A stretch of DNA of 64,000 nucleotides from Acholoe squamosa (Eukaryota > Annelida > Polychaeta > Phyllodocida > Polynoidae): positions 18,898,324 through 18,962,323 of the forward strand of contig OX439037.1 in NCBI GenBank assembly GCA_949317995.1, read 5' to 3'. The notes beneath the pieces were generated by a model. The model saw nothing but the letters and a program-made list of their open reading frames with translations. It was not told the DNA's origin and searched no databases. Every line of letters begins with the position of its first letter. The first letter of the stretch is position 1. Below are positions 27,301 through 44,067 of the stretch, in pieces. The position numbers and the translations under genes are program-made.

Positions 27301-27304
27301 GCAG
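27301..27304 (+). repeat. Target-site duplication, left (GCAG)
   Basis: GCAG immediately precedes the left LTR and recurs directly after the right LTR. Four bp is usual for Ty3/gypsy integrases. Confidence 0.85.
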
Positions 27305-28027
27305 TGTTTTGTCATCAATAGCCAATAATTATAATGAACGGGTATAACAGGGTACACTTGTGTGGGTATTTATTGTAGGCTGTATTATGTGTGTATTTAT
27401 TGTATGCTATATGAGAGAGTGCTATGGGAGTCCTGTATAGGGTTTATGGTAGCTAGAGTTTATGGTAGACTGTGGAATGTGCAGACGGAGGGGAGTCGAC
27501 GAGATCTGGTCAGGTAGATTCTGTAGAGGGGGAGGGGGGAACACGTGTGAGCCAAACATCGGCGTCTGAAAGGTGTGAGGGGTTAGCAAGAGATAGGGAG
27601 GAGTTAGTATTGTGTGAGCAGCCGAGGAGGCAACACATACTCCTGGAGTAGACGAGGATGAAGCTGTTTAGTATTTAGTATTACACTTAGCCAATGTAAG
27701 AACGGATTGAACAGGATCTCTATGGCACTTATACCTCTCCAGTAGCATCCGATTGTTAAAACATAATCTGCTTGTATGAATAGACTGATGTCGTTGAAGC
27801 TGTACAACCTGAGTGGACTCACCAAACAACTGTAACTGTGAATAATCAATGAACAATAAATGGTGACTTGTATCGGCGTCTTGGTGTTGGTTAAAAGAAT
27901 GGGCTAGGCCAACATCATACCACTAGAGTTAGTCTTCCCAAATACGTGAGAACAGCGGAGCGAGCTGATAATAACTACACAACTTATACCACATTAATAT
28001 ACATATAAACACAACCCACACAGCCCA
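27305..28027 (+). repeat. Left LTR (723 bp)
   Basis: Starts TGTTTTGTC and ends CAGCCCA, aligning at a constant offset of 16,040 bp with the right LTR. The only differences are at 27703 (C versus T) and 27750 (C versus G). A polyadenylation signal AATAAA is at 27855-27860. No clear TATA box was identified. Confidence 0.97.
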
Positions 28028-28029
28028 GA

Positions 28030-28046
28030 TGGTGGAGAATTAGTGG
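28030..28046 (+). promoter_or_regulatory. Primer binding site (putative)
   Basis: Two bases after the LTR comes TGGTGGAGAATTAGTGG. The TGG start fits pairing with the CCA end of a tRNA. I could not match it confidently to a particular tRNA, and pairing to an internal tRNA region is also possible. Confidence 0.6.
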
Positions 28047-28066
28047 TTGGGCTTATCATTGTACTG

Positions 28067-30673
28067 ATGAGCGGCTCGCCGTACCCGATACCTAACAGCT
28101 CAGACGCTGGATGTGACTCAGCGGCATCGCCACACACTGACAGTAGTGACGGTGTGGAAGTCTATACTATCATACCTGCAGCGCGCACATTGCCTGGGGA
28201 TGCAGCAGTAGCACATAGTGGTGTAGCAGAGGGACAGGGTGGAAGATCCGGAGTGAGTGAAGCGGGACCTGATCAATCACGTGTCACTCTTAGATCGGAT
28301 CACACACATGTGCATGTGCAATTAGGACCCAGGTCGCAAGTGGTGCTTTTGCCTGGAGAGGAGGTGTCTAGAGAGATTGGATTCCCCGTGGCTCGGTCAG
28401 AGGAGGAGCGGGCGTCGTCTCAAAGGGATCCCAAATCTGGGGGGACGTCTGGCCTACAATTGTCTACGACGGCTGATTCTGAACCAGCAGGGTCGGTGGT
28501 AGTGGACGATACCTCTGGACCATTCTCAGCATTGGGAGTGGAGAACGAGCATCAGTCATCTGCGGCAGAGTCGGAGACCAGGGCTGATATTTCTAGTGAT
28601 GGGCAACAGGCGACGGTTCAGGAGCACACAGTAAGTGCCGATGCAGGGGAACGGCCTGATAATCTCTGCAAGGGATGGACGACAGGAGACAGATTAGTGA
28701 ATTATAAGTATTTTTCGACGCCCATTGCTAGGAGCTCCAGTATTAATTTCTGTAAGGCTACTCCTAGGTGCCTTGAGTTTGAGGGTACAGCGGACCAGGG
28801 ACGGGTCAGACGCGCATCTGAAGGGGATGTGGTGGATATTGGTGATGAGGATTTGAATTTTGAAGCAATAGCAACGTCATTGGGGTTAATTGAGCCAGTA
28901 AATGAGGACGGACAGGTGGATGAGAGTGGAACAAAGGATAGTCATGAGAATGAGGGGGACGCCCATGGGGGGAGTAATCCAATAGACGGGACATCTACGG
29001 TGGTGGCAGCGTCAGGACAGGAAGAGGACGTCGGTGAGGAGATACAGGAACAGGGGTCGGAGGCCTGTGGTGATTTACAAGGGGAAGACGCAAGACTGCT
29101 GCCCTCGGGTTTCTTGGTAGTTGTTGAGAATGGGAGAGAGTTAAGTGATAAGGACTTGGTGGGCCAGGATGAGGATGGTGGAGTTGGACAGGATCGGACA
29201 GTCTGTACTACACCGGTCATTATAGGTGATCCAAGTGGCAGTTGTCTGGGAGAGTCTGTGAGTAGAGCACGGGTGGATGAGATTATTGCAGGTCTGCAGA
29301 ACACTAATATTAGGGTGCGACACAGTATAGAGAGGGGGAGGGCCATATTGGAACAGGAGCTGAGATATCGGCAGGCCATTGATGGGGAGGAGCTGCTCAC
29401 GGGGCCGGAGACAGAACGGGAGCGCGTAGCACGAAGGGAGAGGTTTTTGAGCGACACAGTAAATTGGAGAAAGGTATCTGCGAATATCCGCTCAGGCAAT
29501 AGTACAGGTCGTACTACAGGTGAGGGGCATTTAGATGATGTTCTAAATAGCCATCTTCAGGCTGATGTTTCGGGTGACTGGGAGGATTGGTGGGTTCGGA
29601 GAGCGGATGACGAGAGAAAACGACAGATAGAAAGGGAGGCCCGGGAGGAAGCCGCCGAGGGCTCCGTAGCTGGAGGTGTTAAAACTAGTGTACAGGGGAA
29701 CGAGGGTGAAGAGAGCTCAGTGGGTGATTTGGATGCGGAGAGACAGGTAGAAGAGGATATTGCACCTATTATTGGTTTTGAAGACGACGACATGGCGCCT
29801 AGTCCGAATGTTAAATTACCATCCTTCAATGGGGAGCCTGGGGAGGGTTATCGGAGATATTTCAAGGAATTGAATGGAATGCAAAAGCTATTTGGATGGT
29901 CTCCGGATCAACATCTTGAATATGCAAAATTGGGCTTGAAGAAAGGGGCATCGAAATGGATGGATGGTATTCCAGAAGGGGAAAAGGATACTTTGGACAA
30001 AGTAGTGGCTATAGTGAAGAGGGTTTTTGAAGACAAAAGGCCACTGTGGCAGAAACATAGGGATTTGCACTGTCTGAAGCAGGAAAAGGGACAGTCGGTT
30101 TGGGACTTCGCATTGAAAATAAAGGAATATGACGAGTTGGACGTTCCTGATGTCATCAAGCTGTCAGTCTTTGTGGGGGGTTTGCTTCCGCCCATTGATA
30201 AGGACCTGATGAAACACAATGCTGATTCTTTTGAAGAGGCTCTCAGGCTGGCGTCTTATTGGGAAAATGTGGAGAAAGGAAGGAACTCCAAAGGTGTGGC
30301 GCAGTTACATATGCAAGAGTCTGAGGGGACTCGGGATGGAGCATGTGGGGATGATCAGTTTGATCCTAAAGAGTATGCTAGGGAACAGACTAAAGCAGTG
30401 GTGGAGATGTGCACTATGGAATATAGAAGGGGGCTCAGAGAGATGGAACATGGACGGGAGAATCAGCAGGGACAGTATGCTGGAAGGGGTGGCACTTCAC
30501 AAGGGCAGTATCAGGCACAGACGGGCAGAGGGACTGGCGCGGGAACATATGGTCAGAATAGACAGTTCGGTGCAGGCGGTGGAGGTCGAGGATGGAATTA
30601 TCAAGGGGGACGCGGTGGAAATCAATATAACGCGTCTCAGTATTTCAATAACAGATTTCAAGGACATAGGTAA
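28067..30673 (+). CDS. gag: Gag polyprotein (868 aa to an in-frame TAA)
   Basis: The first ATG of the open frame is at 28067; the frame itself is open from the leader. Residues 1 to about 580 are long, acidic and low in complexity, rich in Glu, Asp, Gly and Ser, with an RRASEGDVVDIGDEDLNF stretch. A retrotransposon-type capsid domain lies at about residues 582-745 (LPSFNGEPGE, then GLKKGASKWMDGIPEGEKDT, then VWDFALKIKEYDEL). The C terminus is RGG/Gln-rich (GRGGTSQGQ, GGGGRGWNYQGGRGG), an RNA-binding type of sequence. The frame stops at TAA 30671-30673, but the same frame stays open afterwards and contains the zinc knuckle. Gag is nearly twice the usual gypsy length. It would form the particle shell and package RNA. 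A second copy of its capsid N-terminal motif is at 36508. Confidence 0.93.
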   Translation: MSGSPYPIPNSSDAGCDSAASPHTDSSDGVEVYTIIPAARTLPGDAAVAHSGVAEGQGGRSGVSEAGPDQSRVTLRSDHTHVHVQLGPRSQVVLLPGEEVSREIGFPVARSEEERASSQRDPKSGGTSGLQLSTTADSEPAGSVVVDDTSGPFSALGVENEHQSSAAESETRADISSDGQQATVQEHTVSADAGERPDNLCKGWTTGDRLVNYKYFSTPIARSSSINFCKATPRCLEFEGTADQGRVRRASEGDVVDIGDEDLNFEAIATSLGLIEPVNEDGQVDESGTKDSHENEGDAHGGSNPIDGTSTVVAASGQEEDVGEEIQEQGSEACGDLQGEDARLLPSGFLVVVENGRELSDKDLVGQDEDGGVGQDRTVCTTPVIIGDPSGSCLGESVSRARVDEIIAGLQNTNIRVRHSIERGRAILEQELRYRQAIDGEELLTGPETERERVARRERFLSDTVNWRKVSANIRSGNSTGRTTGEGHLDDVLNSHLQADVSGDWEDWWVRRADDERKRQIEREAREEAAEGSVAGGVKTSVQGNEGEESSVGDLDAERQVEEDIAPIIGFEDDDMAPSPNVKLPSFNGEPGEGYRRYFKELNGMQKLFGWSPDQHLEYAKLGLKKGASKWMDGIPEGEKDTLDKVVAIVKRVFEDKRPLWQKHRDLHCLKQEKGQSVWDFALKIKEYDELDVPDVIKLSVFVGGLLPPIDKDLMKHNADSFEEALRLASYWENVEKGRNSKGVAQLHMQESEGTRDGACGDDQFDPKEYAREQTKAVVEMCTMEYRRGLREMEHGRENQQGQYAGRGGTSQGQYQAQTGRGTGAGTYGQNRQFGAGGGGRGWNYQGGRGGNQYNASQYFNNRFQGHR

Positions 30674-30958
30674 ACAGGAGGAAGCAGGCAGGGTCAACAG
30701 GGGGATGATAAAGGTCAGAGAAGAGCACAGGAATATGCTAGGATGATGGGTGATGCAGGAGAGAGTCAGAAAGGAGGAGGAGCGATCTATTGCTTGATTC
30801 ATGACTCTACTACACATTCTACAGAGGAGTGCACGTTTTTGAAGAAATACAGGGATCAGTTGTCATCCTCTCAGCAGAACAGAGACCAACGAGATCAGGG
30901 AAATGATGTTCGCAGGCCGGGAAACGGGCACAACGGCTCATTCCTACCCCAGAATTAA
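30674..30958 (+). CDS. Gag nucleocapsid segment with zinc knuckle, after an in-frame TAA
   Basis: This is the direct in-frame continuation of gag past the TAA at 30671-30673, open for 94 codons to a TAA at 30956-30958. It contains a zinc-knuckle variant, CLIHDSTTHSTEEC, spaced C-X2-H-X4-H-X4-C, as in many gypsy Gag proteins, followed by a basic/Gln-rich tail. It would be made if the TAA is read through, or from family members lacking the stop; alternatively the ATG at 30743 starts a small protein. A -1 slippery heptamer (30919-30925) lies near its end. Confidence 0.75.
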   Translation, partial: TGGSRQGQQGDDKGQRRAQEYARMMGDAGESQKGGGAIYCLIHDSTTHSTEECTFLKKYRDQLSSSQQNRDQRDQGNDVRRPGNGHNGSFLPQN

Positions 30959-33069
30959 ATTTGATATCAGGGGATGGGTCGGAGAATAGGGGATCAAAAG
31001 ACAAAGCGCCATGGTTGGTTCAGTGTACTATTGACGAGAATACATACAGATGTTTAGTGGACACGGGCGCGTCTGATTGTTTTATAGCACGGACAGTTGT
31101 GAGTAGTATAAGTGAGAGAGCAATTTGGGACAGGCAGCCATCTCAATTGGGGAAGGTGCGTCTGGGGGACAAAACATCATTACAAGTTTATGAGACGGTG
31201 CGACTGCAGTGTTTTATGGATGGTGCTTGCATATGCTATGATTTTAATGTGGTGGATTCACTAGCTTATGATATTGTGCTGGGGCGTAATTTTCTGATCG
31301 ACGCAAGGGCACAGATTATAGCTATAGATGGAAAGGTACGTCTCTTTACTGAGGATCCGGTCTCAATTGAAGTAGCGGCGATTTTGGACCCATGGGAAGA
31401 AAGATTGGTGACGGTGAAGGGATGGGATGTTGCGACTGACAGGGTTGGAACAACGGTTTTGCTGAGACCATCTAATTTGGCGGTGGTAGCTGCGGATGGT
31501 GCGGTGAACTATGTGGGGAAGAAATGGTATATGAGAATTGCTAATCTCTCTGACAGGCAAGTGTACGTGGATACAACTGAGGTTATAGCATATGCAGAAG
31601 ACATAGATGAACCAGAACTTAATTTGCTGGAGGTAATTGATACAGCTAATGTTGACAGGGATAGAAAGGATGAGGCTCGTGAGATTTTGGCACGATGTAA
31701 TGAAGAACGGCAGGGGAATGGTCAAGATGTTAGGGGAGGATCAATGCACCGGCAGGATCATCAGAACAGTGGTGGTGGAAGCGGTGTTTCTACCTTAAGT
31801 GAGCAGGAGAGGCTGGATAAAATTGAGAAGATCAGGGGCCTTGATTTGGGTGACACTATGATGACGCTGGAGGAGCAGAGGGTATTCAGAGAGATGCTGG
31901 TGGTCAACATGGACACTATAGCATTTTCTATGAAGGAGTTGGGTCATTGTTCATTGGCTCCAATGAAAATAAGGGTCGATGAGTCCAAGGGTCCGTGTAT
32001 GGCGCGACCATACAGGTATTCTCCTCAGAAAATGGATATTATTGATGAACAGGTGAGGGAATTATTGAGGTTGGGAATTATTGAGCCCAGTGACAGCGTA
32101 TGGAGAAGTCCGTTGGTGGTAGTGCAGAAGAAGGATGGAAAGGCTAGATTATGTACAGACTATCGCATGTTGAATCTTATTACGGCGGATGATACATACC
32201 CTATGCCCACAGCCAGGAGCATGTTTTTGTATATGGCATACAGAAAACCTATAATCTTTACAGCCATGGATTTGCTCAGTGGGTATCATCAGTGCGATTT
32301 ACATCATGACAGCAGGCAATACTCAGCATTTGAATCACCCTCGGGGGTTTGGCAATGGACGAGGATGCCGTTTGGTATGAAGCAGAGCCCATGGCAATTT
32401 ACTAAGATTATGTCATTAGCACTAGGAGGCTTAATACCACGTACTTGTCTAGCCTACCTAGACGATATCATTATCTTTGATCAGGATGTGGACAGCCATA
32501 TTACTAATGTTGGCAGAGTATTGGCAGCTTTAGGTAAAGCAGGTTTAACAGTGAAGCCGGAAAAGTGTGAGTGGGGCAAAGCGGAAATCAAGTTTTTGGG
32601 GCACATTATTAATGCTGAAGGAGTGCAGACACAGTCTAAGGTGATCAGAAAGGTGCAGGAATTTGGCAGACCGTATAATGAACATACAACTAGATCCTTT
32701 CTGGGGCTTTGTAATTATTACAGGAGTTTTATTCCTAACTATGCTGTTTTGTCGATGCCTCTGAATAATTTGTTGAAAATCAAGGTGCCATTTAAGTGGA
32801 CGGATGAGTGTGAGGTGTCATTCAAGAAAATACAAGCAGCATTAGCAAGCACACCGTTATTGGTACATCCAGAGATCGGGGGTCACTTTTATGTTTTAAC
32901 GGATGCTTCGGATGGCGCGTGTGGAGCGGCCATCTGTGTAAAGAGGGACGGATTGCTGAGACCGGTAACATATTATGGGTATACATTTACAAAAGCTGAG
33001 AGAAATTACACTATAACAGAGAAAGAAGGCCTAGCTGTTATTAATACCTTTGCTTCAGCAAGCCAGTAA
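30907..33069 (+). CDS. pol: Pol: protease, reverse transcriptase, start of RNase H
   Basis: The frame is open from 30907 and would be entered by the -1 shift at 30919; there is no good ATG. Aspartic protease: LVDTGASDCF (catalytic DTG at 31060-31068). RT: WRSPLVVVQKKDGKARLCTD, AMDLLSGYHQ, FGMKQSPWQFTKIM and the catalytic YLDD at 32455-32466, then FLGHIINAEG and the FLGLCNYYRSFIPNY connection. RNase H: LTDASDGACGAA supplies the first acidic residue and EKEGLAVI the second. The frame stops at 33067-33069 just after. Roughly 25-30 residues expected around the third catalytic Asp (the TDH region) are not found in either frame, so RNase H is internally deleted and frameshifted in this copy. Confidence 0.95.
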   Translation, partial: CSQAGKRAQRLIPTPELNLISGDGSENRGSKDKAPWLVQCTIDENTYRCLVDTGASDCFIARTVVSSISERAIWDRQPSQLGKVRLGDKTSLQVYETVRLQCFMDGACICYDFNVVDSLAYDIVLGRNFLIDARAQIIAIDGKVRLFTEDPVSIEVAAILDPWEERLVTVKGWDVATDRVGTTVLLRPSNLAVVAADGAVNYVGKKWYMRIANLSDRQVYVDTTEVIAYAEDIDEPELNLLEVIDTANVDRDRKDEAREILARCNEERQGNGQDVRGGSMHRQDHQNSGGGSGVSTLSEQERLDKIEKIRGLDLGDTMMTLEEQRVFREMLVVNMDTIAFSMKELGHCSLAPMKIRVDESKGPCMARPYRYSPQKMDIIDEQVRELLRLGIIEPSDSVWRSPLVVVQKKDGKARLCTDYRMLNLITADDTYPMPTARSMFLYMAYRKPIIFTAMDLLSGYHQCDLHHDSRQYSAFESPSGVWQWTRMPFGMKQSPWQFTKIMSLALGGLIPRTCLAYLDDIIIFDQDVDSHITNVGRVLAALGKAGLTVKPEKCEWGKAEIKFLGHIINAEGVQTQSKVIRKVQEFGRPYNEHTTRSFLGLCNYYRSFIPNYAVLSMPLNNLLKIKVPFKWTDECEVSFKKIQAALASTPLLVHPEIGGHFYVLTDASDGACGAAICVKRDGLLRPVTYYGYTFTKAERNYTITEKEGLAVINTFASASQ
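30919..30925 (+). promoter_or_regulatory. -1 ribosomal frameshift site G_GGA_AAC
   Basis: GGGAAAC sits in the exact X_XXY_YYZ register of the gag frame. A -1 shift moves ribosomes into the protease/RT frame, which is open from 30907. The same heptamer is used at frameshift sites of several retroviruses. The overlap of the two frames is 30907-30955. G-rich sequence 45-75 nt downstream could take part in a stimulatory structure, but no clear pseudoknot was drawn. Confidence 0.8.
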
Positions 33070-33607
33070 GGCTCCGTCCAAAAGGTTGACTAGATGGGGT
33101 TTGGCAATGACTGACTTTGACTATGAGATCAGGTATGAGCCGGGAGCCACTCATTACCTGCCGGATTTTATATCCAGAGTGCCGTTGGCAGTGGGACAGG
33201 ATACACCTGGCAAGGAGTCGGGGGAGTTTGAGCCTGAGGTGGGATGTGAGTTACTCGTGATGGAACTGGTAGGGGAGGAATTGGATAGGGAAACCTTCAT
33301 TCAGGAACAGTGGAAGGATGGATTCTGCAGGGGGATGATGAGATATTTGGCGGGAGATGAATTGCCTGTGGATGAGGAAAAGGCGCGAGGAATTTTACAT
33401 AATGCTGATTTCATGGGTATGAAGGATGGATTGTTATGCAAGTATATAAAACCAGCTAGAAAGAGGGGTGGGCCTATAGCTGACCTAAACCCAAGGATAG
33501 TGGTGCCTAAGGCTATGGTGAATAGAGTGCTCTATCTCATGCATGATGATATCATGTGCGGAGGACATGTGGGAACAGTGGCGCTGAATACGAAAGTACA
33601 GGCTTGA
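33050..33607 (+). CDS. Pol continuation: RNase H end and integrase zinc-binding start
   Basis: This is a different frame from the RT segment, overlapping it by 20 nt at the deletion point. It opens with the end of RNase H (KRLTRWGLAM, then FDYEIRYEPGATHYLPD), passes through a linker, and reaches the first half of the integrase HHCC zinc domain (LMHDDIMCGGHVG supplies the histidines). It stops at TGA 33605-33607, in the middle of the zinc domain; the same frame continues beyond with FYWKNMM and the CERC cysteines. The gene is therefore broken at both ends of this piece. It is part of pol, not a separate gene. Confidence 0.92.
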   Translation: MLQQASKAPSKRLTRWGLAMTDFDYEIRYEPGATHYLPDFISRVPLAVGQDTPGKESGEFEPEVGCELLVMELVGEELDRETFIQEQWKDGFCRGMMRYLAGDELPVDEEKARGILHNADFMGMKDGLLCKYIKPARKRGGPIADLNPRIVVPKAMVNRVLYLMHDDIMCGGHVGTVALNTKVQA

Positions 33608-35323
33608 TTTTATTGGAAGAATATGATGGTGGACATAGCTAGGTACGTGCGGCTATGTGAAAGGTGCGCGTTGAGGAAAAGAGCACCTCACTTTAGAGCC
33701 AAGGCAAGATCATGGGATACACCGGATTATCCATGGCAGGTGATACAGACAGATTTTGTTGGGCCACTGCGTAGGTCCAAAGAAGGTTATAAATATATCA
33801 TGACCTTCATAGACCTTCTGACGGGATGGCCAGAGGCATTCTGTACTAAAGACACAACTGCGCACACGGCAGCTGGGGTGTTTCTACGGGAGATCGTGTG
33901 TAGGTACGGCAAGGTGGAAGTGCTGTGCAGCGACAGAGGGTCTACATATATGGGTCAGGTTTTTCGTGAGGTTACAGCTAGACTATCAACCAAACAGAGG
34001 TTTACGTCTTCTAGGAATCCGACCGGAAATGCCAGGGTTGAAAGATTGCATAAATCATTAGAGGATACGATAGGATGCTATGTGACTGAGGACCATGAAC
34101 ACTGGCCAGAGCTGTTACCCATTGCATTATGGACGGTGCGCTCCAACATTAGTATGAGGACGGGGTTTTCACCATACACACTACAATTTGGGAGGGATCC
34201 GGTGGCTATGTCCTTTGCTGAAGAAAGGCCACTGCCTAAAGTGCCATCTGAAAGGGATTGGTTTATAAGGACAAATCATAGCATACAATTATTACAGGAG
34301 GCGGCCAACGCTCATACTGCTAGGTATGAGGAGCAGCTCAGACGTAGACTGGATGGACGGGCGCGACCTGTATCTTTTATAGAGGGGGAGTGGGTATATT
34401 ACTATGATCCAAAATGCGCGGTGAATAATACATCAAAGTTTGCTGGTAGATACACGGGGCCACATAGGATTATAGAGGTGGTGGGGGATAACAGGGTGAG
34501 GTTGAGAGCAGTGAAGACGGGCAAAGAGATACCTCACTTAGTAAATGTGAATAAGCTGAAGAGAGCATACAAAGGGGAGGGTGAAAATGACGAAGGAGTA
34601 GCCAAAGATGAGGGGACTGTGGAAGTGGATAGGACAGAAGTGGAATCAGAAGTGGAAATACAGGATATAAGACGTGAGGACCCTCAAGGGGTGACTGAGG
34701 TAGAACATCCTTCATCTGGTCTGGAGGATACAGCGCTAGCGGGCGCTGATAAGGAGGACAAATTGAAAACGTCAGACGACGATAGAAGTGCACATGAGAA
34801 AAAGAGAGAGGTGGCCGGAGCTGGACCGCGCGCACCTATACAGGAATCTGATAATGAGAAAGATGGAGTTGTACGGCGAGATAGCCGGGAGAAGCACAGA
34901 CAGGAAGCTGTGGTCGATAATTGGTGTAAAAAGAAAGGGTTACAGGATAGTGATATTGATAAGGTCGAGGGTGGCCGAAGACAGGATAATGAAGAGAAAA
35001 GGAAGGGTGGAGTGAGAAATGTCGAGGTGAAGAGACAGATGGACGAGGAAAGAGAGAGAGAAGAAATGGAGAGAAGGCAGAAAAGAAAAGAGAGAGAGGA
35101 TAGGGCTGAGAGAAGACGGAGGCAAAGAGATAGGAGGGCGCAATTGGCTGCAGGGGCTATTATGAGTAAGGAATCTAGCAGTGAACATATCATTCCAAAG
35201 GGACCGATTTGTAAGCAAAGAGGGGAGGGGGGGGAGGCCAGCGCAACAGGTATATGCAGGAGGAGATGCATCAGGAGGTGGCAGTGCGCGCACAACGAGG
35301 GACGAGATAAGACCTCACAGTAA
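33608..35323 (+). CDS. Pol: integrase with long charged C-terminal tail
   Basis: In frame with the preceding piece past its TGA; the first ATG is at 33623. CERC completes the zinc domain. The catalytic triad is visible: Asp in QTDFVGPL (33752), Asp in CSDRGSTYMG (33932) and Glu in ARVERLHKS (34040), giving the D,D(35)E spacing. A GPY/F module follows (KFAGRYTGPHRII). After about residue 320 comes a tail of about 240 residues extremely rich in Glu, Arg and Lys (for example EREEMERRQKRKEREDRAE), probably coiled coil or disordered. No chromodomain was seen. Most gypsy integrases end soon after GPY/F, so the tail is unusual. It would insert the cDNA and fits the 4-bp target duplication. Confidence 0.94.
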   Translation, partial: FYWKNMMVDIARYVRLCERCALRKRAPHFRAKARSWDTPDYPWQVIQTDFVGPLRRSKEGYKYIMTFIDLLTGWPEAFCTKDTTAHTAAGVFLREIVCRYGKVEVLCSDRGSTYMGQVFREVTARLSTKQRFTSSRNPTGNARVERLHKSLEDTIGCYVTEDHEHWPELLPIALWTVRSNISMRTGFSPYTLQFGRDPVAMSFAEERPLPKVPSERDWFIRTNHSIQLLQEAANAHTARYEEQLRRRLDGRARPVSFIEGEWVYYYDPKCAVNNTSKFAGRYTGPHRIIEVVGDNRVRLRAVKTGKEIPHLVNVNKLKRAYKGEGENDEGVAKDEGTVEVDRTEVESEVEIQDIRREDPQGVTEVEHPSSGLEDTALAGADKEDKLKTSDDDRSAHEKKREVAGAGPRAPIQESDNEKDGVVRRDSREKHRQEAVVDNWCKKKGLQDSDIDKVEGGRRQDNEEKRKGGVRNVEVKRQMDEEREREEMERRQKRKEREDRAERRRRQRDRRAQLAAGAIMSKESSSEHIIPKGPICKQRGEGGEASATGICRRRCIRRWQCAHNEGRDKTSQ

Positions 35324-35344
35324 ATAGCAGGTGCTGATGGACGA

Positions 35345-35932
35345 ATGGCAGATAGCTGGTACGATAGTGTTGGAGAACAGCAATACCAACAATACTATAA
35401 TACGTGGATGATTCAAGACAACTATTGCAATAGCACTTACAATGAAAGGAGCACAGTGTCTGCAGCAAGTTCAACAACAACAGAAACAAATGAAAAAGGA
35501 TTTGGTGCGACTTCAACGTCAGGCCAACCAAGCTCAGCGCAAGAGCCAATACAGGTGGTGGAAGCAGCTCAAGCCGAGGTCCTGGTAAATCATCAGGGAA
35601 ACATATGGGATAGCATACGTGACATCACTGTGGGACAGACAGAATGGGAGTGGTTGTTGGATGCCACTCTACAAGGCACCGGTGGTATAATTAAGAGAGA
35701 GACTCAGACCACAGAAACAGCGACACAGACAGAACCATCAATATTTTATAGTAAAGACGATGAATTTGTGCTGGATACATCAATCAGATTGGATGACATA
35801 TTGATAGAAGAGTATTATAGCAGAAGACAAGTGACATCAAGGCTCTGTCACATTTGTGGCAGAACAACAGCAACAGCGGCAGGAGCGGCCAAACACCTGG
35901 AACAGGTACATGGGATAAAACATCTCATATAA
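35345..35932 (+). CDS. Accessory ORF A: acidic protein with a C2H2 zinc finger
   Basis: 195 residues from ATG 35345, 21 nt after the integrase stop. The first 60 residues are Gln/Ser/Thr-rich. Acidic stretches sit at 134-155, and QTTETATQTE is a short repeat. The C terminus has CHIC...HLEQVH, Cys168, Cys171, His184 and His189, a C-X2-C-X12-H-X4-H finger. No homologue is recognised. A single finger plus an acidic region suggests nucleic-acid or protein binding, for example a transcription or RNA-handling factor, but this is inference. The stop codon overlaps the start of ORF B (TAATG), so translation may be coupled. Confidence 0.75.
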   Translation: MADSWYDSVGEQQYQQYYNTWMIQDNYCNSTYNERSTVSAASSTTTETNEKGFGATSTSGQPSSAQEPIQVVEAAQAEVLVNHQGNIWDSIRDITVGQTEWEWLLDATLQGTGGIIKRETQTTETATQTEPSIFYSKDDEFVLDTSIRLDDILIEEYYSRRQVTSRLCHICGRTTATAAGAAKHLEQVHGIKHLI

Positions 35933-36417
35933 TGTCCACTAGTGAGGATGCGGGAAAGAGAGCACCATCTATAGTAAAGGCAGGGAGATATAGGGGACAA
36001 CAGGTAGAAGATGCGCTGGATGCTATATATGGATTTGGATATTCATTGCCGAAGGTATTCAGATACAATGGGGCGACGTTACAGGATATAGTAATGCAGA
36101 AAATATCAAAACTGAAATTGGACATCGCGAGATTGCCAAGATATTTGAGGGAACAAGTAAACAGACATCACTTTAAATATGGAGTAGGGAGTGTGACTAA
36201 TGCATTCTTTTTCTCAAGAAAGTGTAGGAGGCATCGCAAGACTAGTAGAGGGAAACGATGCAGGCAGTGTAGACAAAGAGATGAAACTTGGGAAATGTTT
36301 AAACTAAAGCAAAAGGGAAAGCATATCACCCAAGGAGTATTAACATCCGGGGTTAAAGACAATGAGACGACCCTGGAGGAGGAGGATGTAATTGAAAACT
36401 TTGATAAATATAACTAG
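35932..36417 (+). CDS. Accessory ORF B: arginine-rich Cys/His protein
   Basis: 161 residues. I chose the ATG at 35932 because it overlaps the stop of ORF A by one base (TAATG), a classic reinitiation arrangement; the frame is also open upstream. The first 95 residues look globular. Then comes a strongly basic segment, KCRRHRKTSRGKRCRQCRQR, with Cys98, His101, Cys110 and Cys113 (C-X2-H-X8-C-X2-C). It could bind zinc, RNA or act as a nuclear localisation signal. An acidic C terminus follows. The combination recalls small arginine-rich regulators of complex retroviruses, but there is no sequence match and the analogy is inference. Confidence 0.72.
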   Translation: MSTSEDAGKRAPSIVKAGRYRGQQVEDALDAIYGFGYSLPKVFRYNGATLQDIVMQKISKLKLDIARLPRYLREQVNRHHFKYGVGSVTNAFFFSRKCRRHRKTSRGKRCRQCRQRDETWEMFKLKQKGKHITQGVLTSGVKDNETTLEEEDVIENFDKYN

Positions 36418-36507
36418 TAAGGCTATGAGTTGATAGGAAAGAACAGAGGGACTGTACGGATAAAAAATACAATACCTGTTAGGGGAACGTTGTGAGAGGT
36501 CGAAGAA

Positions 36508-36849
36508 ATGTACAAAATGGCAGGTATCAGTATAACGCCACCTACATTTAGAGGAGCACCAGGAGAAAAGATAGAAGAATATTTCTACGACATGGATCTG
36601 ATTAAGAGAATATATGATCTAGGGGAAATGGAATATGTGGCATTATTATTGTGGGGAATGAAAGGTGAAGTGAAAACTTGGGTTAGGAAATTACCTGAGG
36701 AAAGTAAGAATACTGCATGGAAGATACAGCAAATAACCATGGCAGTATTTGCAGCTCCAGATGCATGGAAAGAATGGGGTACAGGAGGAAAGAGACAGAA
36801 AAGACAGCGCGAGAATGACGGCGCGGAAACAGAGCCAGCGGGGGAATGA
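36508..36849 (+). CDS. Accessory ORF C: miniature Gag capsid-like protein
   Basis: 113 residues from ATG 36508 (a second ATG three codons on has the better context). It matches the N-terminal half of this element's own capsid domain in pattern: PPTFRGAPGE against LPSFNGEPGE, then a conserved YF, LLLWGMKGEVKTWVRKLPEE against LGLKKGASKWMDGIPEGE, and a closing I...VF...W. Only about 80 residues of capsid are present, followed by a basic tail (GKRQKRQRE); it lacks the second capsid half, the zinc knuckle and the RGG region. It is a diverged paralogue, not a recent copy. A truncated Gag could interfere with particle assembly, as the Ty1 p22 Gag fragment does in yeast, or help it. Function is inferred. 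Confidence 0.7.
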   Translation: MYKMAGISITPPTFRGAPGEKIEEYFYDMDLIKRIYDLGEMEYVALLLWGMKGEVKTWVRKLPEESKNTAWKIQQITMAVFAAPDAWKEWGTGGKRQKRQRENDGAETEPAGE

Positions 36850-37503
36850 ACACGTGCGTGAGAAAAGGGGGGGGGGGAAGCGTTGGACACTGAGACAGGC
36901 ATATGTATATTAATAGCCTAGTAACAAGAAAAAGGGGGGAAGAGAGCAGACATGCGCAGGTAAAGAAAGAGATAAGATGCAATGACAAGCAAGACAGTTG
37001 GCAGTGCAGGAGTGGAACTCCAGCTGTGCAGACATCGGCAAGCAACAGATACAGACTGCACTCAAAAGTTTAACAAGATAGAACAACTAGCATGCTACGC
37101 GGACATAACCACAACAAGACAACATAATCAGCAGTTTAGATAAGCTATAAACATGAGTTCTAGTGGAAAAGCCTGGATCATAGACAACGGAAGGTTCATA
37201 GCGGTTGAGATGAATTAATGGAGATCAGTAATAATTTACTGAAGGAAAGGAATCATCGCCCACTGTAGAGAGGGTGGAGATATTAAGGCTCAGATACACC
37301 CTACTCTATGGATAAGACTTAACTACTTAATACAGTTTGTGGAAAATTGTAAAAGGTCGGATCCATTTAGGATGCATTTAATATAAAACATATTAGAAAT
37401 ACATACCTGAAGTGAAGATTTAAGGACTAGTAGGAGTAGAGGCATCATCATCATTAGCAGATGAAGCGGGAGAAGAACTGAAGATAGTAAATAAAGCAGG
37501 TAT
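36850..37503 (+). other. Element interior, no long ORF
   Basis: Purine-rich on the sense strand (including a G run near 36868). The purine bias leaves spurious frames open on the minus strand (36585-37045), which I do not call. Confidence 0.5.
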
Positions 37504-37734
37504 ATGAGACAAGAGAAAGAAGTGCATCACATACAGGAGGCAACCACTATGGGGCACCTTATAAGTTGTCTAAGGGTGAATGGAAACACTAGTCGGAATC
37601 AGCAGGACCACAGTCGCGATACACATAGAATGACTCCAGTAACAAGGTCCATAATTAAGAGGCCTAAATTTAAAGGATATATCTGTCCAGAAGTAAGGCA
37701 TTCTGTTAAAGAACCAGAGCCTATAATGGTTTAA
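37504..37734 (+). CDS. Possible accessory ORF D (76 aa)
   Basis: ATG at 37504 opens a basic, soluble-looking frame (for example RSIIKRPKFKGYICPEVRHS) between the mini-Gag ORF and the antisense ORF. Short length and lack of any recognisable domain make it uncertain; conservation in sister copies would be needed. Confidence 0.22.
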   Translation: MRQEKEVHHIQEATTMGHLISCLRVNGNTSRNQQDHSRDTHRMTPVTRSIIKRPKFKGYICPEVRHSVKEPEPIMV

Positions 37735-38057
37735 TTATTTAAGAAGCCCAGACTCTGAGAAATGAAGTACGATGTCTATAGCTGTAGATATATATTCAAA
37801 AATAAGTGTGAGTGAAATTCTTTTCTAAGAAGGTATTAGGACACATAAAATTCAGCCATATGGGTGTATTAATGAGATCAGTTATACACCTGAGACTGTG
37901 AATGTGATCGCCGCTACTCACAAATCAGAGGAGCTCAGCGACTTTATAGAGTTAGCTTATGCATATATTTTAAAAGAAAATATGTGTATAGTATCTTATT
38001 ACAAGAACGAAGTGAGCGTCTCTAGGAATCAAAGTATGAATCACTAGGGAAATATAC
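37735..38057 (+). other. Element interior, noncoding
   Basis: A/T-rich, no ORF supported. It lies downstream of the antisense ORF's stop, so would hold that gene's 3' end if expressed. Confidence 0.45.
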
Positions 38058-39314
38058 TTACTTCTGCGAGAGGGTAGAAGCTGGGGAAGCCAATGTTGGA
38101 AGGATAGGACCTCCAAGATTAGAAGAACGGGAGGCTTGTGGTCTGGCAGAAAGCTGATAGGGATGATGTCGCGTAGTGGTAGCAGATGAAGATGTCAAGA
38201 GAGATATGATGGTAGAAGAACTGTGAGTCAGTCGTGAGGAAGAGGCCATGGTGCTGGACTGACAGGTCAATGGTGAGAAGGGTGGATGTCCAGGTGAGAT
38301 AGCCAGAGTACTCCAGAACGAGGACGACATTACTGGAAGGTGTGGAAGTGAAGCTGCAGTGGATGAAGATGAAGTAAACTGACCGGAAGTAGAAGAGGTC
38401 AGGGCCAGAGCGGGCGTATGTAGGCAGGAAGGCGGAGACCTAGGAGCCGAGGTGGCGCGAGCCTCTGCAGATGGAGCAGCTCGGATGGGGATGTGAGGCA
38501 TCCTTAATGAAGATACAGCAGGAAACTGACCGGAAGTAGTGGTGCTGGTAGTAGAAAAGGGACGAGAAGCAGCGGCGGAATAGGTAAATGTGGATGTTAG
38601 GGTTGTTCTGGACGTCAGAGGTGCAGTGGTGGCTAGCAAAGGTGTGTATGGTAAAGGCGAAACACCAGAAACAGCCGGAATGTGAGAAAGCACATTGTAG
38701 TCTACATATGAAGAGTGATGCTGAGGTGGCAATGGACGAGAAGTTGTTGAAACAGCGAAGTTGGCAGGCAGAGAATATTGGTGGGAGGTGTCCACTCGTA
38801 AAGGAAGAGTCGCTGTGCAAGTTGGTAGCGCATTAGAGGTGAAGGTGGATGCTGAGCTTGGAGCAGAGGTAGCAGGTACAACGGCGCTGTAGACAGGACG
38901 CGCACCTATGGGCGACATCAGAGTGGGATTCCAAGGTGGCACGAAAGGAGTGGTAAAGTTGACTGGAGGCGGAGTGATGTCGACATAAGCTGGCTGATAA
39001 GCAGGAGTAGGAATAGGTGGAACAGCGACAGCCGACTGCAGACGATAGTTGGGATCAGGACGCCCATCCAAATGAATGATACGTAAGGTCATATCAGTCA
39101 TATTACAGGCCAGGCGGAGATGATCCCGAATGGTAGTGTGTGAAGGCATAGTCGCGCCTTGCGGTCCGGTGCATACTAACATGCACGGAGTGACGTTAGC
39201 GTCTGTGGAGGACAGGTCTCTGCAGCCGACGATGTAGGTAAAGCCGGGCTGGAGACGATCTATCGGGAGATAGACGAGGGCGCCATTGACAGAAACGCTG
39301 GAATAGCTAGCCAT
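38058..39314 (-). CDS. Antisense ORF (418 aa), Ser/Thr/Pro-rich, unknown
   Basis: Runs opposite to all other element genes. The first ATG is at 39314 (minus), giving MASYSSVSVNGALVYLPI. Residues 1 to about 120 have mixed, globular composition (GFTYIVGCRDLSS, CMLVCTGPQG, LRIIHLDGRPD); the remaining ~300 are Ser/Thr/Pro/Ala-rich with no domain. No sense-strand ORF of any size overlaps it, so it is not a shadow of a sense gene. The sense strand here is purine-rich, which lowers the stop rate on the minus strand and could open the tail by chance, but not the ordinary N-terminal part. Env starts 408 bp away in the opposite direction, so the two are head to head. Antisense ORFs occur in some plant gypsy elements and in HTLV-type retroviruses; I know no homologue of this one. 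Confidence 0.6.
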   Translation of the reverse strand: MASYSSVSVNGALVYLPIDRLQPGFTYIVGCRDLSSTDANVTPCMLVCTGPQGATMPSHTTIRDHLRLACNMTDMTLRIIHLDGRPDPNYRLQSAVAVPPIPTPAYQPAYVDITPPPVNFTTPFVPPWNPTLMSPIGARPVYSAVVPATSAPSSASTFTSNALPTCTATLPLRVDTSHQYSLPANFAVSTTSRPLPPQHHSSYVDYNVLSHIPAVSGVSPLPYTPLLATTAPLTSRTTLTSTFTYSAAASRPFSTTSTTTSGQFPAVSSLRMPHIPIRAAPSAEARATSAPRSPPSCLHTPALALTSSTSGQFTSSSSTAASLPHLPVMSSSFWSTLAISPGHPPFSPLTCQSSTMASSSRLTHSSSTIISLLTSSSATTTRHHPYQLSARPQASRSSNLGGPILPTLASPASTLSQK

Positions 39315-39722
39315 CTTCAGTGCGAACAAGGTGGAAGTCAAGCATCGACTGAGAATTTAATTCTAGGTATCTAACCAAGGGGATGGGAAGTTGAAATAAG
39401 AAAACAAAAATATAGTGAAAACTATAGTAAAAAAAAATTGAGGGCACATTAGGAGGAGTCGCTGAGACAAAGACTCCAATCCAATAAATTGGTGTTATCA
39501 GATGGAAGAGACGTACAGCTAGATAGGAAAGGAAGGCACACGTGTTCAGATTGACGGGAAAATATATACAAGAAGGGGTAAAAGGGTCATGAACTGGTGA
39601 ACTATCTGACACGATAGGGCTTATTAAGTGTTCAAGATCCATAAAAAAACTTCCAGGAGCGATCAGTTAGGAGTCGTAGTAACCCAACTCGAACTGTAAC
39701 CGGAAGCCATAATAAGAAGAAA
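39315..39722. promoter_or_regulatory. Divergent intergenic region between antisense ORF and env
   Basis: 408 bp separate the two divergent start codons. It is A/T-rich with AAAAATATAGTG and GAAAATATATAC (TATA-like, 39558-39569), so it could hold internal promoter activity for the antisense gene or env. A splice acceptor for a subgenomic env RNA might also lie here; none is obvious. Purely inferred role. Confidence 0.3.
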
Positions 39723-41147
39723 ATGGCGTGGCTAACTATACTATGTGTCTTATGTTCCTTGTGGGGTGTGGTAGATGCTGGAAGGCACACTTTCGAGACT
39801 TTAGAGAGAGCCGAATTAGGTGTCATTTTGCAACCTGGTAGACGTATTTCTACGGCTGAGCACAATCATGTGTCACAAGTGTTTGTATTAGGGATACCAG
39901 ATAGATTACCAGAGCCGGAAATGGAAAGTATTTATGAACAATGTGTGAAGAATATGCAGGTTATGTGTGATATTCAACATCACAACAGAACTTTATTATT
40001 TGAAGATACCTGTGACAACATCAAACAGAAAGAAGAATGGTTGAATCAAATTATTAGAAAATTAATACAGGCCAGAGAGGAGGAAGTGGAAAAGCTGATG
40101 GAAAACATACCTGAACAACAACAAGTCAAAAGATCTAAGAGAGCAGGTATACCAGGTCTAAATATTATAGGAGAGTTGTCGTACTATATTTTTGGCACTG
40201 GGAGAGCTGATGATGTAGCCAGAAATGAAAAAGATATTCAATTACTGAAGACATCATATTATAAGATGCGTGATGTTATTAAAACATTGGCCACAAGTAC
40301 TAGCAATGGCTTGGAGGACGTCATGGCGGAAGTGGGAGAGTTGGCTGATAGACAGTTACAATTGTATGAAATGGCTAAGATATCATTGAAGAGACGGAAG
40401 TTGCTGGAAAGAACTCAAACTATGCACAGTGTGGCATTATATGAACTATCCATTGTATACAACCATGAAAGCCTGCTGACAAGGGTCAAATGGGGGTATA
40501 TTATACATTTATTAAATGAACTCATTGAGATAAAGGATATGGCAGCTGAGGTAAGATTGGCATCACGAAGAAAACTATCATCAAAATTGGTCACTAGAGA
40601 AGATTTGAAGGAAGCTATAGTCAACACTGAAGTATATTTAAAGGCTACGTACCCAAGATTTAGGGTCGCTTTTACTGATCCTGAATATTACTATGACAAT
40701 AGTGTGGTACGAGTATATCAACACCAAGGTCGTGTGAAGATGCAGATAAGGATCCCTGTGGTGTCAGAGGAACACATATTCTGTGTATACTCTGTAAAGG
40801 TGTTTCCGGTGCCAGTGCGGCTGGCCAATAAAGAAGCTGACGGGACGAGAATAGAGGGATTGCCATCAGAAGTAGCCATATCAAAGAATGGGCGGTATTA
40901 TATATCAGAGCCAGTGGTGAATTGGGCGCGTTGCCATGGCAACTCAATAGCAGTATGCCCAGATATTCCACACATGAGAAAAATAGCCGAACGAGGGTGC
41001 ATGGCGGCACTAATAAGAAATGACAAGGTGGCCATAGCAGAAACATGTGAGATCAACTATATAGTGCAACCAAATTTTCCTTCATTTGCGATAGCACTGG
41101 GAAAGGTCGTACTTTGGTATCGGGACCCGATATACAAGGCCAATTGA
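39723..41147 (+). CDS. env: Envelope, N-terminal part (F/errantivirus-like)
   Basis: ATG 39723 opens 474 codons. Residues 1-19 form a signal peptide (AWLTILCVLCSLWGVVDA). A furin-type site KRSKR ends at residue 140 and is followed by a hydrophobic, Gly-containing fusion-peptide-like segment (AGIPGLNIIGELSYYIFGTG, 141-160) and then heptad-rich helices. This resembles baculovirus F protein and gypsy/errantivirus Env, where RxKR precedes a GL..IG.....FG motif. The receptor-facing subunit is residues 20-140, short for this family. The frame stops at 41145-41147 before any membrane anchor; the remaining ectodomain and anchor are in the -1 frame. It would act as a class I-like membrane fusion glycoprotein on the particle surface. 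Confidence 0.88.
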   Translation: MAWLTILCVLCSLWGVVDAGRHTFETLERAELGVILQPGRRISTAEHNHVSQVFVLGIPDRLPEPEMESIYEQCVKNMQVMCDIQHHNRTLLFEDTCDNIKQKEEWLNQIIRKLIQAREEEVEKLMENIPEQQQVKRSKRAGIPGLNIIGELSYYIFGTGRADDVARNEKDIQLLKTSYYKMRDVIKTLATSTSNGLEDVMAEVGELADRQLQLYEMAKISLKRRKLLERTQTMHSVALYELSIVYNHESLLTRVKWGYIIHLLNELIEIKDMAAEVRLASRRKLSSKLVTREDLKEAIVNTEVYLKATYPRFRVAFTDPEYYYDNSVVRVYQHQGRVKMQIRIPVVSEEHIFCVYSVKVFPVPVRLANKEADGTRIEGLPSEVAISKNGRYYISEPVVNWARCHGNSIAVCPDIPHMRKIAERGCMAALIRNDKVAIAETCEINYIVQPNFPSFAIALGKVVLWYRDPIYKAN

Positions 41148-42472
41148 TGTGTCAATCAAGTCCACCTGTTAAGGTGAACATGCATCATTACGCCATATTG
41201 AACATTGGGTGTGATTGCGCATTCATGACTGCTGGGGCGTGGATGCCTTACAGCTTGGCAGGATGTGGTCATGTGAACATGGAAACTAATGTGACTTTTG
41301 TAAATAACGATTTGCTACAAATGAACAGTGTTAAGAAATTGACATGGATAAAGGCCGTATTAAATGGTGAAACTGTGGAGGTATTGCAAGATGAAGTGTT
41401 GCCAAAATTAGTAAAGACCAAAATGAAACACAAGGCTAGGATACAACAGTCGCCAGCAGCTGTCAATCTTAAGAATTCGGTGAGTGCAATGGAAGACGGA
41501 TCAGCATTACCCGATTTGGATGGCATGAGTTGTGGAGGCCATTTTCCCACTGAATTACTATGCGATTATTCACCAATAATGATTGCAGGGGTGATTGTTA
41601 TGACTCTGATGGTTGTGCAATATTTTTGTTTAAAAAGACTATTAATGGCATACATATTAGCAAGAATGCCTATGAGAATAAGGAGTCTAGAAACCTGGGA
41701 CTATGAAAAATACGGTGAAGATGTCGGAGGTAATTATGAGGAAGAAGATCAGCAACACAAAACGACGATAGCTATGTTATCATTGATATTGATAGTATTG
41801 ATAATAATAATAGCGTTATTGGTGAGGAAGGTGCGACAACTAAAGAGGCTTCAACCAGTGGATGGATTGTATCTACAGGTAGCAACTAAAGAGATTACAG
41901 AGATAATACCATTGGGGGAGAGTCTAATGCCTTTGGACCAGGTATTTCAAAGACCAGCAGAACAGGCTCTTATTAGAGACGTAGCAATAAGCTACTCGTG
42001 CCCGAAGTACATAGCTACAGTGCAGTGGGGTCGAGTGTTATATTCCACTGAGATGGCAACGGCGGAAAACGCAGTGCCATTGCCATTACCAGCCACTGTG
42101 AAGGTGTCAAAGAAATTAGCAGGGATACTGAACGGTGACTATGGATTTACGGTGATGACAAGATCGATTAGGTATAGTGGGGGTCTGGCGACAGGTGTAC
42201 CACTAGAGATACCTATGATATCAGCGGCGGGCTGGACACCAATAAGGAACAGAGAGATAAATACACACCAGTTATCTGACACGGGACATGCCAGAGCCAT
42301 GGCTCAGTTAAGAAGATCAAGACAGTTACCAGAAGTACCTGGAGAATCATATGGGGCTACGGCTGTCTCATATTCAGTAAGCAAAGGTCATAAAGAGTCG
42401 GTGAACGTGGCTCTGCGAGGTCAAGAGCCCAGGACAGGATCGTCATCGGTGTACGTGGACCTGAATGAATGA
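41105..42472 (+). CDS. Envelope, C-terminal part with two membrane segments
   Basis: Continues env in the -1 frame, overlapping the first part by about 40 nt, with no convincing ATG of its own at the overlap. It starts with a Cys-rich ectodomain (ILNIGCDCAFMTAGAW, SLAGCG), a membrane segment IMIAGVIVMTLMVVQYF (about residues 154-172 counting from 41114), an acidic loop, a second hydrophobic segment IAMLSLILIVLIIIIALLV (219-237), then a cytoplasmic-side domain of about 210 residues ending in YVDLNE. That tail is far longer than in errantivirus Env and has no match I know; YVDL fits a YxxPhi sorting motif. The frame change may be a disabling indel or recoding. Confidence 0.82.
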   Translation, partial: GRTLVSGPDIQGQLMCQSSPPVKVNMHHYAILNIGCDCAFMTAGAWMPYSLAGCGHVNMETNVTFVNNDLLQMNSVKKLTWIKAVLNGETVEVLQDEVLPKLVKTKMKHKARIQQSPAAVNLKNSVSAMEDGSALPDLDGMSCGGHFPTELLCDYSPIMIAGVIVMTLMVVQYFCLKRLLMAYILARMPMRIRSLETWDYEKYGEDVGGNYEEEDQQHKTTIAMLSLILIVLIIIIALLVRKVRQLKRLQPVDGLYLQVATKEITEIIPLGESLMPLDQVFQRPAEQALIRDVAISYSCPKYIATVQWGRVLYSTEMATAENAVPLPLPATVKVSKKLAGILNGDYGFTVMTRSIRYSGGLATGVPLEIPMISAAGWTPIRNREINTHQLSDTGHARAMAQLRRSRQLPEVPGESYGATAVSYSVSKGHKESVNVALRGQEPRTGSSSVYVDLNE

Positions 42473-43324
42473 GACTGAAGGTGATGAATGAAACGCCATC
42501 ATGATAGAGACTTGGCATAGACGGTGTCAGGACATGAGAAGGAGGGGGGGGAGAAAGATATCGTGCAGCTGGCGTGAGACGAAAGGATGGAATAGACAAT
42601 ACAAAGACGATCTACAGATGATTTGATATAATGTCTGGGAATGGTGCCAGTGTATATTATTGAGTAAGATAATATAGCTAAAAGAAACTGTAATTTAAAT
42701 GTACGACCAACGAATGAGACACTAACTACGACGTAATGTGGCAAGTGGAAAGATTTCTGATGTATATACTCGCTGACAAGCTGTGCACGAGTGAGTTAAG
42801 TAAGAGGTTGCCAGGTGTAACCCAAGACGCGTTAGAGTGTGTTTTAGAGTGATGCTTGGGGCAAAGGGTAGATAGAGGGGAACGTTTCGGAACAAGAAGT
42901 TGACAGATGTAAGGAGATTTATTGGCCGATTGGGTGTAACTGGTGTCGACTCCCGGGTAAGGATAGTAAAAAGAATATATAAACATAGAATGGGACAAAG
43001 TGCTTAGTAAAGGCGAGTGAATGAGTAAAATAAATAACAAAGGAAAGAAAAACAAATTGAGAATCAAGGAATGAGAGAATTGTAATAATAAAGTATATGT
43101 TAGAGGACAAGTTTGCGCTAAGAATAAGTCACCAATGCAGTGTGGAAAATATATATAGTAATAATGCATGGTATTATATAAGTGTGGTGTATATGTATGT
43201 ACATAAATAACTATTGAAATGTATAATATGATAACGATAATTACCTCAGGTATTAGTGACAAAACAATACATAAGATGTATTCAGGCATAATTTATGCTT
43301 GACAATTGGTGTGACTCGCGTCAC
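42473..43324 (+). other. 3' noncoding region of the element
   Basis: Purine- and A-rich sense strand between env and the right LTR. An ATG-started 187-codon frame on the minus strand (42726-43289) is very hydrophobic, as expected from reading purine-rich DNA backwards, and is not called as a gene. TATATAAA-like strings occur near 42975-42985. Confidence 0.45.
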
Positions 43325-43334
43325 AAGAGGGGAG
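43325..43334 (+). promoter_or_regulatory. Polypurine tract (putative)
   Basis: AAGAGGGGAG lies 10 bp before the right LTR. A purine tract primes plus-strand DNA synthesis in LTR elements; the 10-bp gap to the LTR is larger than usual, so the assignment is moderate. Confidence 0.4.
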
Positions 43335-43344
43335 CGCCCGCACC

Positions 43345-44067
43345 TGTTTTGTCATCAATAGCCAATAATTATAATGAACGGGTATAACAGGGTACACTTG
43401 TGTGGGTATTTATTGTAGGCTGTATTATGTGTGTATTTATTGTATGCTATATGAGAGAGTGCTATGGGAGTCCTGTATAGGGTTTATGGTAGCTAGAGTT
43501 TATGGTAGACTGTGGAATGTGCAGACGGAGGGGAGTCGACGAGATCTGGTCAGGTAGATTCTGTAGAGGGGGAGGGGGGAACACGTGTGAGCCAAACATC
43601 GGCGTCTGAAAGGTGTGAGGGGTTAGCAAGAGATAGGGAGGAGTTAGTATTGTGTGAGCAGCCGAGGAGGCAACACATACTCCTGGAGTAGACGAGGATG
43701 AAGCTGTTTAGTATTTAGTATTACACTTAGCCAATGTAAGAATGGATTGAACAGGATCTCTATGGCACTTATACCTCTCCAGTAGCATCGGATTGTTAAA
43801 ACATAATCTGCTTGTATGAATAGACTGATGTCGTTGAAGCTGTACAACCTGAGTGGACTCACCAAACAACTGTAACTGTGAATAATCAATGAACAATAAA
43901 TGGTGACTTGTATCGGCGTCTTGGTGTTGGTTAAAAGAATGGGCTAGGCCAACATCATACCACTAGAGTTAGTCTTCCCAAATACGTGAGAACAGCGGAG
44001 CGAGCTGATAATAACTACACAACTTATACCACATTAATATACATATAAACACAACCCACACAGCCCA
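43345..44067 (+). repeat. Right LTR (723 bp)
   Basis: 99.7% identical to the left LTR (differences at 43743 and 43790), same TG...CA ends. Polyadenylation signal AATAAA at 43895-43900. Confidence 0.97.

Follow-up and report, generated by a model that had tools for sequence, protein, structure and literature searches.

Errantiviruses and related env-carrying gypsy elements, such as gypsy and ZAM, have a Ty3/gypsy-type pol followed downstream by env. Errantivirus env products carry a furin-type site, and these elements integrate preferentially at alternating purine-pyrimidine sites, producing a 4-bp target site duplication (TSD). Some vertebrate retroviruses are classically recognised by their complex sets of accessory genes. 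We describe a long terminal repeat (LTR) element of 16,763 bp at 27305-44067 of a 64,000-nucleotide stretch of the Acholoe squamosa genome (GCA_949317995.1, contig OX439037.1, positions 18,898,324 to 18,962,323 of the forward strand; hereafter the window, to which coordinates refer). The element shares with errantiviruses the pol type, the position of env, a furin-type site read by eye and the TSD preference, but at 16.8 kb it has four extra genes between integrase and env, one of them antisense. We consider it probable that this is a defective copy of a young, env-carrying Ty3/gypsy (Metaviridae) family with a complex retrovirus-like gene set, in which a capsid decoy (ORFc), two proteins acting on RNA or transcription (ORFa and ORFb) and an antisense-encoded regulator would supplement gag, pol and env.

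A wider set of env-carrying gypsy elements of Metazoa is credited to Chary and Hayashi 2025 in citations of PMC13172572. In plants, Retand/Grande-type elements have a long region between pol and the 3' LTR with a conserved antisense ORF, the protein of which has been suggested to bind DNA and to regulate (PMC11963269; PMC7264820). The conserved antisense ORF is shared with the present element; no env-like sense ORF is found in the cited portions of the plant reports. The element also departs from the Retand type in the antisense product: the plant proteins carry TRP28 (PF04195), whereas the protein described here has no Pfam match (E up to 1). The LTR element Cer1 of C. elegans has an accessory protein beside gag-pol, CERV, which is needed for RNA export (PMC10309623); this sets a precedent for accessory proteins in such elements. 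CERV is made from a spliced Cer1 mRNA. LTR elements of bdelloid rotifers have captured extra ORF3s, some env-like, but these differ in kind (lipase, exonuclease, transmembrane), and the cited text mentions no antisense gene (PMC5408684). Among the open-access literature matches listed, none described a gypsy element from an animal that carries either an antisense gene or a capsid lobe encoded by a gene of its own; Repbase, Dfam and the pan-metazoan env-gypsy set lay outside this search.

The two LTRs of the window copy differ at n = 2 positions (27703 and 27750), and the element is flanked by the TSD GCAG (Table 1), bearing out the original prediction of a recently inserted element of about 16.8 kb. 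An LTR search was conducted over the 1.48-Gb assembly (63 contigs), with the best 40 of 940 candidates scored: all 40 matched at 97-100% identity, and 24 of these rows form at least 12 LTR pairs approximately 16 kb apart, including that of the window. When 10 of the other 11 pairs were measured, 8 showed no differences and 2 differed by one base, and all 10 had a perfect 4-bp TSD. LTRs of different copies (11 compared) are 0.7-2.9% apart. Within pairs the difference is 0-1 base, so several lineages inserted very recently: the family is young and has been recently active. The TG..CA termini and the 4-bp TSD of 11/11 copies, window included, agree with the Metaviridae/Ty3-gypsy pattern (TG..CA, TSD of 4-6 bp), and 7 of these 11 TSDs have the alternating RYRY sequence (R, purine; Y, pyrimidine; p 1e-6) of errantivirus-type integration. 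Troyka elements, with CG..CG termini and a 3-bp TSD (PMC12440569), are ruled out by the same characters.

Between the end of the integrase ORF at 35323 and the start of env at 39723 are 4.4 kb with three sense ORFs (ORFa, ORFb and ORFc) and one antisense ORF. Three to four small sense ORFs and a long antisense ORF had been predicted for about 4.4 kb here; the region, three of the sense ORFs and the antisense ORF stand, but a fourth sense ORF is not supported. The longest open sense frame in 37000-38060 (79 codons) was matched by 43 of 500 dinucleotide shuffles, the number used per stretch in all frame-length tests. A candidate 82-codon sense ORF at 38588-38836 sits within the antisense gene; over the full length of that gene, each of 12 copies has 20-32 stops in the three sense frames.

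All four accessory genes are kept open and are under purifying selection in the examined copies, which for the accessory genes were the window copy and 11 others (n = 12) unless stated. The antisense frame and ORFb are intact in 12 copies, and ORFa and ORFc in 11 each, the exceptions being a stop in copy L016 for ORFa and a frame shift in L013 for ORFc. The ratio of nonsynonymous to synonymous change (dN/dS), given as the mean over copy pairs, is 0.13 for ORFa (11 rows, L016 left out), 0.095 for ORFb (12 rows), 0.061 for ORFc (11 rows, L013 left out) and 0.275 for the antisense gene overall (12 rows). Synonymous difference (pS) averaged over pairs is 0.02-0.06 in ORFa-c and the env piece. The predicted complex accessory region, which depended on the accessory ORFs being conserved between copies, is thus upheld by frames open in 11-12 of 12 copies and by dN/dS well below 1. 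The stretch from 36850 to 38057 has no supported ORF and differs by 2.1% between copies, below the 6.3% at synonymous positions in the env piece; constrained RNA or regulatory signals may lie within it.

The accessory ORFs could alternatively be passenger sequence without protein function, with frames left open by the purine-rich plus strand. Plus-strand GC skew is 0.23 to 0.36 per 2 kb across the element, with a plus-strand A excess (the flanks are weaker or of opposite sign), and an excess of G and A on this strand lengthens antisense frames on its own. Another antisense frame, at 34687-35394, was reached in length by 21/500 shuffles, yet its period-3 signal was reached by 0/500 simulations, because the frame mirrors the sense gene; furthermore, ORFb fails the period-3 test, with 364/500 simulations reaching its value. 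The main antisense frame behaves differently: its 432 codons exceed the shuffle maxima of 286 and 303 in two stretches (500 shuffles each), its period-3 signal is 77 compared with a maximum of 28.6 in 500 simulations, and the five other frames of its stretch have 4-32 stops per copy in 12 copies. The lengths of ORFa, ORFb and ORFc were each reached by 0/500 shuffles (narrowly for ORFc, at 117 codons against a maximum of 114), and the period-3 signals of ORFc and ORFa by 7/500 and 13/500 simulations, respectively. Antisense differences between the window copy and copy L010 fall 53/26/97 by codon position, and the three segments with the most differences between these copies have dN/dS values of 0.02, 0.15 and 0.35. 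With sense ORF values of 0.06-0.13 as well, the passenger explanation is largely refuted by dN/dS, and we regard it as very improbable.

Further antisense genes were sought by following ten more LTRs, at two guessed places each, and by a protein search. The gene was present at 5 of the 20 places, and three were recovered end to end (two open, one broken); the L075 gene is without 78 internal bases and the L060 sequence starts cut at its first base. Excluding the L075 and L060 copies, 34 of 37 distinct full sequences are open. In the protein search (query from 39341), 98 of 1130 candidates were scored, of which 96 were stop-free; as only the best matches were scored, this sample is biased to intact A-type copies (see below). 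Residues 1-95 of the protein form a nearly invariant N-terminal domain, and residues 96-418 are approximately 60% Ser/Thr/Pro/Ala. In codons 1-76, the window copy and L010 differ by 16 synonymous changes and 1 nonsynonymous change (dN/dS 0.02; Fisher p 4e-10); over the whole frame, the Fisher p is 4e-18.

The middle of the antisense gene consists of two old haplotypes, A and B, recombined within nearly identical elements (backbone approximately 2% diverged). Mean pairwise difference in this mosaic part is 6-17% per 100 bp, with values up to 31%, compared with 0.2-4.7% elsewhere in the accessory piece. Of the first 12 copies, 6 have A, 4 have mainly B and 2 are B-then-A recombinants with clean crossovers; L105, L106 and L108 are further mosaics. 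Distances in the mosaic segment do not track those in gag and env (Mantel r from 0.07 to 0.13, p from 0.11 to 0.22) and are weakly related to those in the ORFa-c region (r 0.31, p 0.02), while the other regions correlate with one another at r 0.52 to 0.67. Over codons 77-290, pS between the window copy and L010 is 0.42-0.50 and nonsynonymous difference (pN) is 0.11-0.19. As pS is 0.02-0.06 in ORFa-c and env, the haplotypes must be far older than the copies that carry them. Template switching during reverse transcription would be the likely route of their recombination.

Three other accounts of the antisense gene were considered and rejected. The differences are mostly transitions (C/T 74 and A/G 38 of 176) and are not adenine-specific, arguing against a diversity-generating mechanism. 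Delivery of the gene by a nested recent insertion is at odds with its plus-strand G excess, which is that of the rest of the element, and with its identical place in all 12 copies. Positive selection is not indicated, since dN/dS is at most 0.46 in the stretches that distinguish the haplotypes; the one value greater than 1 (1.2) comes from only 1 synonymous and 3 nonsynonymous changes.

Whether the two haplotypes are there because diversity is favoured is a separate matter. A divergent relative may have contributed them by chance introgression, without any selection favouring diversity, an explanation towards which we lean slightly: crossovers are ordinary in retroelements, and the greater rise of synonymous than of nonsynonymous difference noted above is expected for constrained imported sequence. 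Less easily accommodated are the several distinct crossovers within one gene and the occurrence of B-type middles in more than one backbone group. In addition, a gag stretch is the only other raised region among the three pieces examined, a comparison that took in little of pol and only parts of gag and env. The clustering of crossovers is not decisive against introgression, as recombination is visible only where the haplotypes differ. In an unlikely but more far-reaching scenario, a metavirus with its own capsid-decoy gene and exchangeable antisense haplotypes would have a system of self-recognition or superinfection exclusion, in which copies of one type would hinder one another and a new haplotype would evade this.

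The antisense mRNA would be transcribed from the 408-bp gap that separates the antisense ATG from the env ATG on the opposite strand. With its small conserved domain and a Ser/Thr/Pro-rich, probably disordered tail, the protein may be a nuclear regulator. A protein search with the antisense ORF gave no result among 7993 scored candidates, probably because low-complexity words crowd it; a PDB sequence search found none, and a fold search among viral proteins found nothing with a model of the N-terminal domain that was too poor.

Its sequence shows ORFc to be a free capsid N-lobe, with support from a predicted fold like the N-lobes of dArc and Arc. It is a separate, diverged gene with homology to the Gag of the same element (BLASTP 7e-9). 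Its length, sequence and fold all conform to an RTL8-like architecture (a single capsid N-lobe, with no C-lobe and no zinc knuckle). A protein search with ORFc gave no candidate sharing three words, and PDB sequence searches with ORFc and Gag gave 5 and 1 weak matches, respectively, none convincing. RTL8 is likewise a 113-aa truncated capsid protein resembling the N-lobe only, has less than 30% identity to its target, the PEG10 gag, and binds the PEG10 N-lobe, reducing PEG10 particles (PMC11684626). The p22 protein of Ty1 is a truncated Gag that inhibits Ty1 and comes from the other half of Gag (PMC4599808); both p22 and Drt2 are, like ORFc, truncated capsid proteins. RTL8 and Drt2 are host genes, however, while ORFc is carried by the element itself.

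By analogy to RTL8, ORFc would bind the N-lobe of Gag during assembly. It may be a dose-dependent decoy, as RTL8 is for PEG10 and p22 for Ty1, and would then restrict the making of new copies or the superinfection of cells in which the element is already present. Possible, though somewhat doubtful in our view, is that ORFc does not inhibit but serves as a functional component of the particle, or as an adaptor that binds peptides in the style of the Arc N-lobe, tuning capsid shape or recruiting a host protein. The fold matches of ORFc include peptide-bound Arc N-lobes (6tno and 6tq0; also 4x3i), and its strong constraint suits a necessary role; ORFc nevertheless has neither a C-lobe nor the end of Gag that binds nucleic acid, and the closest architecture of tested function, RTL8, is an antagonist (PMC11684626). 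The ATG of ORFb overlaps the stop of ORFa (TAATG), and both TAA and ATG are kept in 12/12 copies, suggesting that the two proteins would be made from one mRNA by stop-start coupling. The zinc-finger-like ORFa and the Arg/Cys-rich ORFb may act on element RNA or transcription. All NCBIfam matches of the accessory ORFs are far below cut-off.

The remaining genes bear out the predicted gypsy type and the presence of a gene where env is expected. Pfam matches along 30961-35320 follow the Ty3/gypsy order of protease, reverse transcriptase (RT), RNase H and integrase: pol piece 1 matches RVT_1 (3.3e-27) and RT_RNaseH_2 (2.9e-22), with protease matches below cut-off; pol piece 2 matches Integrase_H2C2 at 0.16 only; and pol piece 3 matches rve (1.9e-13), with SH3_Tf2-1 (0.0022) below cut-off. 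The closest pol relatives, P0001-P0015, are 42-72% identical to the query, of which their alignments cover 38-98%. As the integrase of P0001 and P0002 is followed by a short tail, the long charged one of this element is not a general feature. The large extra domains predicted for Gag and integrase proved instead to be long, charged extensions, which no Pfam family matches above its cut-off. The N-terminal gag piece 28043-29398 has no in-frame stops in 12/12 copies (one copy has a gap-broken codon) and a dN/dS of 0.37.

The putative env is identified by its position and by features read by eye (Table 1), of which the furin-type site with its hydrophobic stretch presumably resembles that of F-type fusion proteins. 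At 39723-41060, no in-frame stops are found in 12/12 copies (a codon is gap-broken in two), and dN/dS is 0.05. Neither env piece has a match above the family cut-off in Pfam or NCBIfam (D-amino-acid transaminase, for example, is far below), and at E up to 1 no Pfam env or baculovirus F family is matched by either. A PDB sequence search with env piece 1 found none. Viral contig searches with env, pol, the antisense protein and the pol alignment gave no result, as did a genome contig search with the pol alignment; in PHROGs, the gag, pol and sense accessory ORFs gave integrase matches only.

The window copy is defective, being broken in both pol and env. A stretch of RNase H that is present in P0001 and P0002 is missing, and the frame changes there; the integrase zinc region has an in-frame stop at 33605-33607; and env changes frame near 41.1 kb. 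The integrase tail of this copy is also shorter, at approximately 35211-35217, than that of 11/11 other copies, by 247 bp (251 relative to one copy).

Table 1. Features of the element in window coordinates
Feature	Position	Strand	Description
TSD GCAG	left 27301..27304, right 44068..44071	.	4 bp, one copy on each side of the element
5' LTR	27305..28027	+	723 bp, TG..CA; 721/723 bases same as 3' LTR
gag ORF	28043..30673	+	acidic N-terminal extension of ~580 residues, capsid N-lobe at ~593-662, C-lobe, Gly-rich end
Variable island in gag extension	28799..29398	+	pS 0.12 and dN/dS 0.39 among 12 copies; pS 0.03 just upstream
pol piece 1	30907..33069	+	aspartic protease, RT and first part of RNase H, in which the frame breaks
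pol piece 2	33035..33607	+	end of RNase H and integrase zinc-binding region, closed by in-frame stop
pol piece 3	33608..35323	+	integrase core, SH3-like module, long charged tail
ORFa	35345..35932	+	195 aa; C-terminal C2H2-type zinc-finger spacing; Pfam zf-C2H2 0.31 only
ORFb	35932..36417	+	161 aa, Arg/Cys-rich
ORFc	36508..36849	+	113 aa, free-standing capsid N-lobe
Antisense gene	38058..39314	-	418 aa from ATG 39314, stop 38058; mechanical ORF starts at TTG 39341
Mosaic part, haplotypes A and B	38413..39212	-	pairwise difference per 100 bp and crossover maps
env piece 1	39723..41147	+	signal-peptide-like start, RSKR furin-type site then hydrophobic stretch (by eye)
env piece 2	41114..42472	+	past frame break; two hydrophobic segments and long tail (by eye)
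3' LTR	43345..44067	+	723 bp

The right flank contains a tandem array of a 50-bp unit (44070-45876; 36 copies, 92% matches) that begins exactly at the boundary of the 3' LTR and the TSD. On the left, an array of this unit was not found, only a weak match of 35-36 bases, so the element was inserted at or near the edge of the array. Elsewhere in the genome, two family LTRs on the same strand are only 1.1 kb apart (G000:C6:69406118-69407970), perhaps a deleted element or an LTR-LTR product. The window also has two fragments of a non-LTR retrotransposon, at 12527-13633 (minus strand; RVT_1 4.5e-21) and 7996-8685 (plus strand; no Pfam match), which by reading encode a nearly identical C-terminal protein. 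Rfam and tRNA scans of the window gave no match.

In the model we propose, a full-length sense RNA would serve gag-pol, and shorter mRNAs would serve ORFa/ORFb, ORFc and env. The family is a gypsy-type animal element with a complex accessory set that includes an antisense gene under protein-level selection, and its recent insertion means that expression and small-RNA data may be obtainable. If the decoy role is true, ORFc would be a natural case of a retroelement carrying the type of gag-derived inhibitor that hosts domesticate (RTL8, with Drt2 and Fv1 similar in kind). With the stand-alone N-lobe, it can be tested directly whether elements use their own capsid to restrict themselves.
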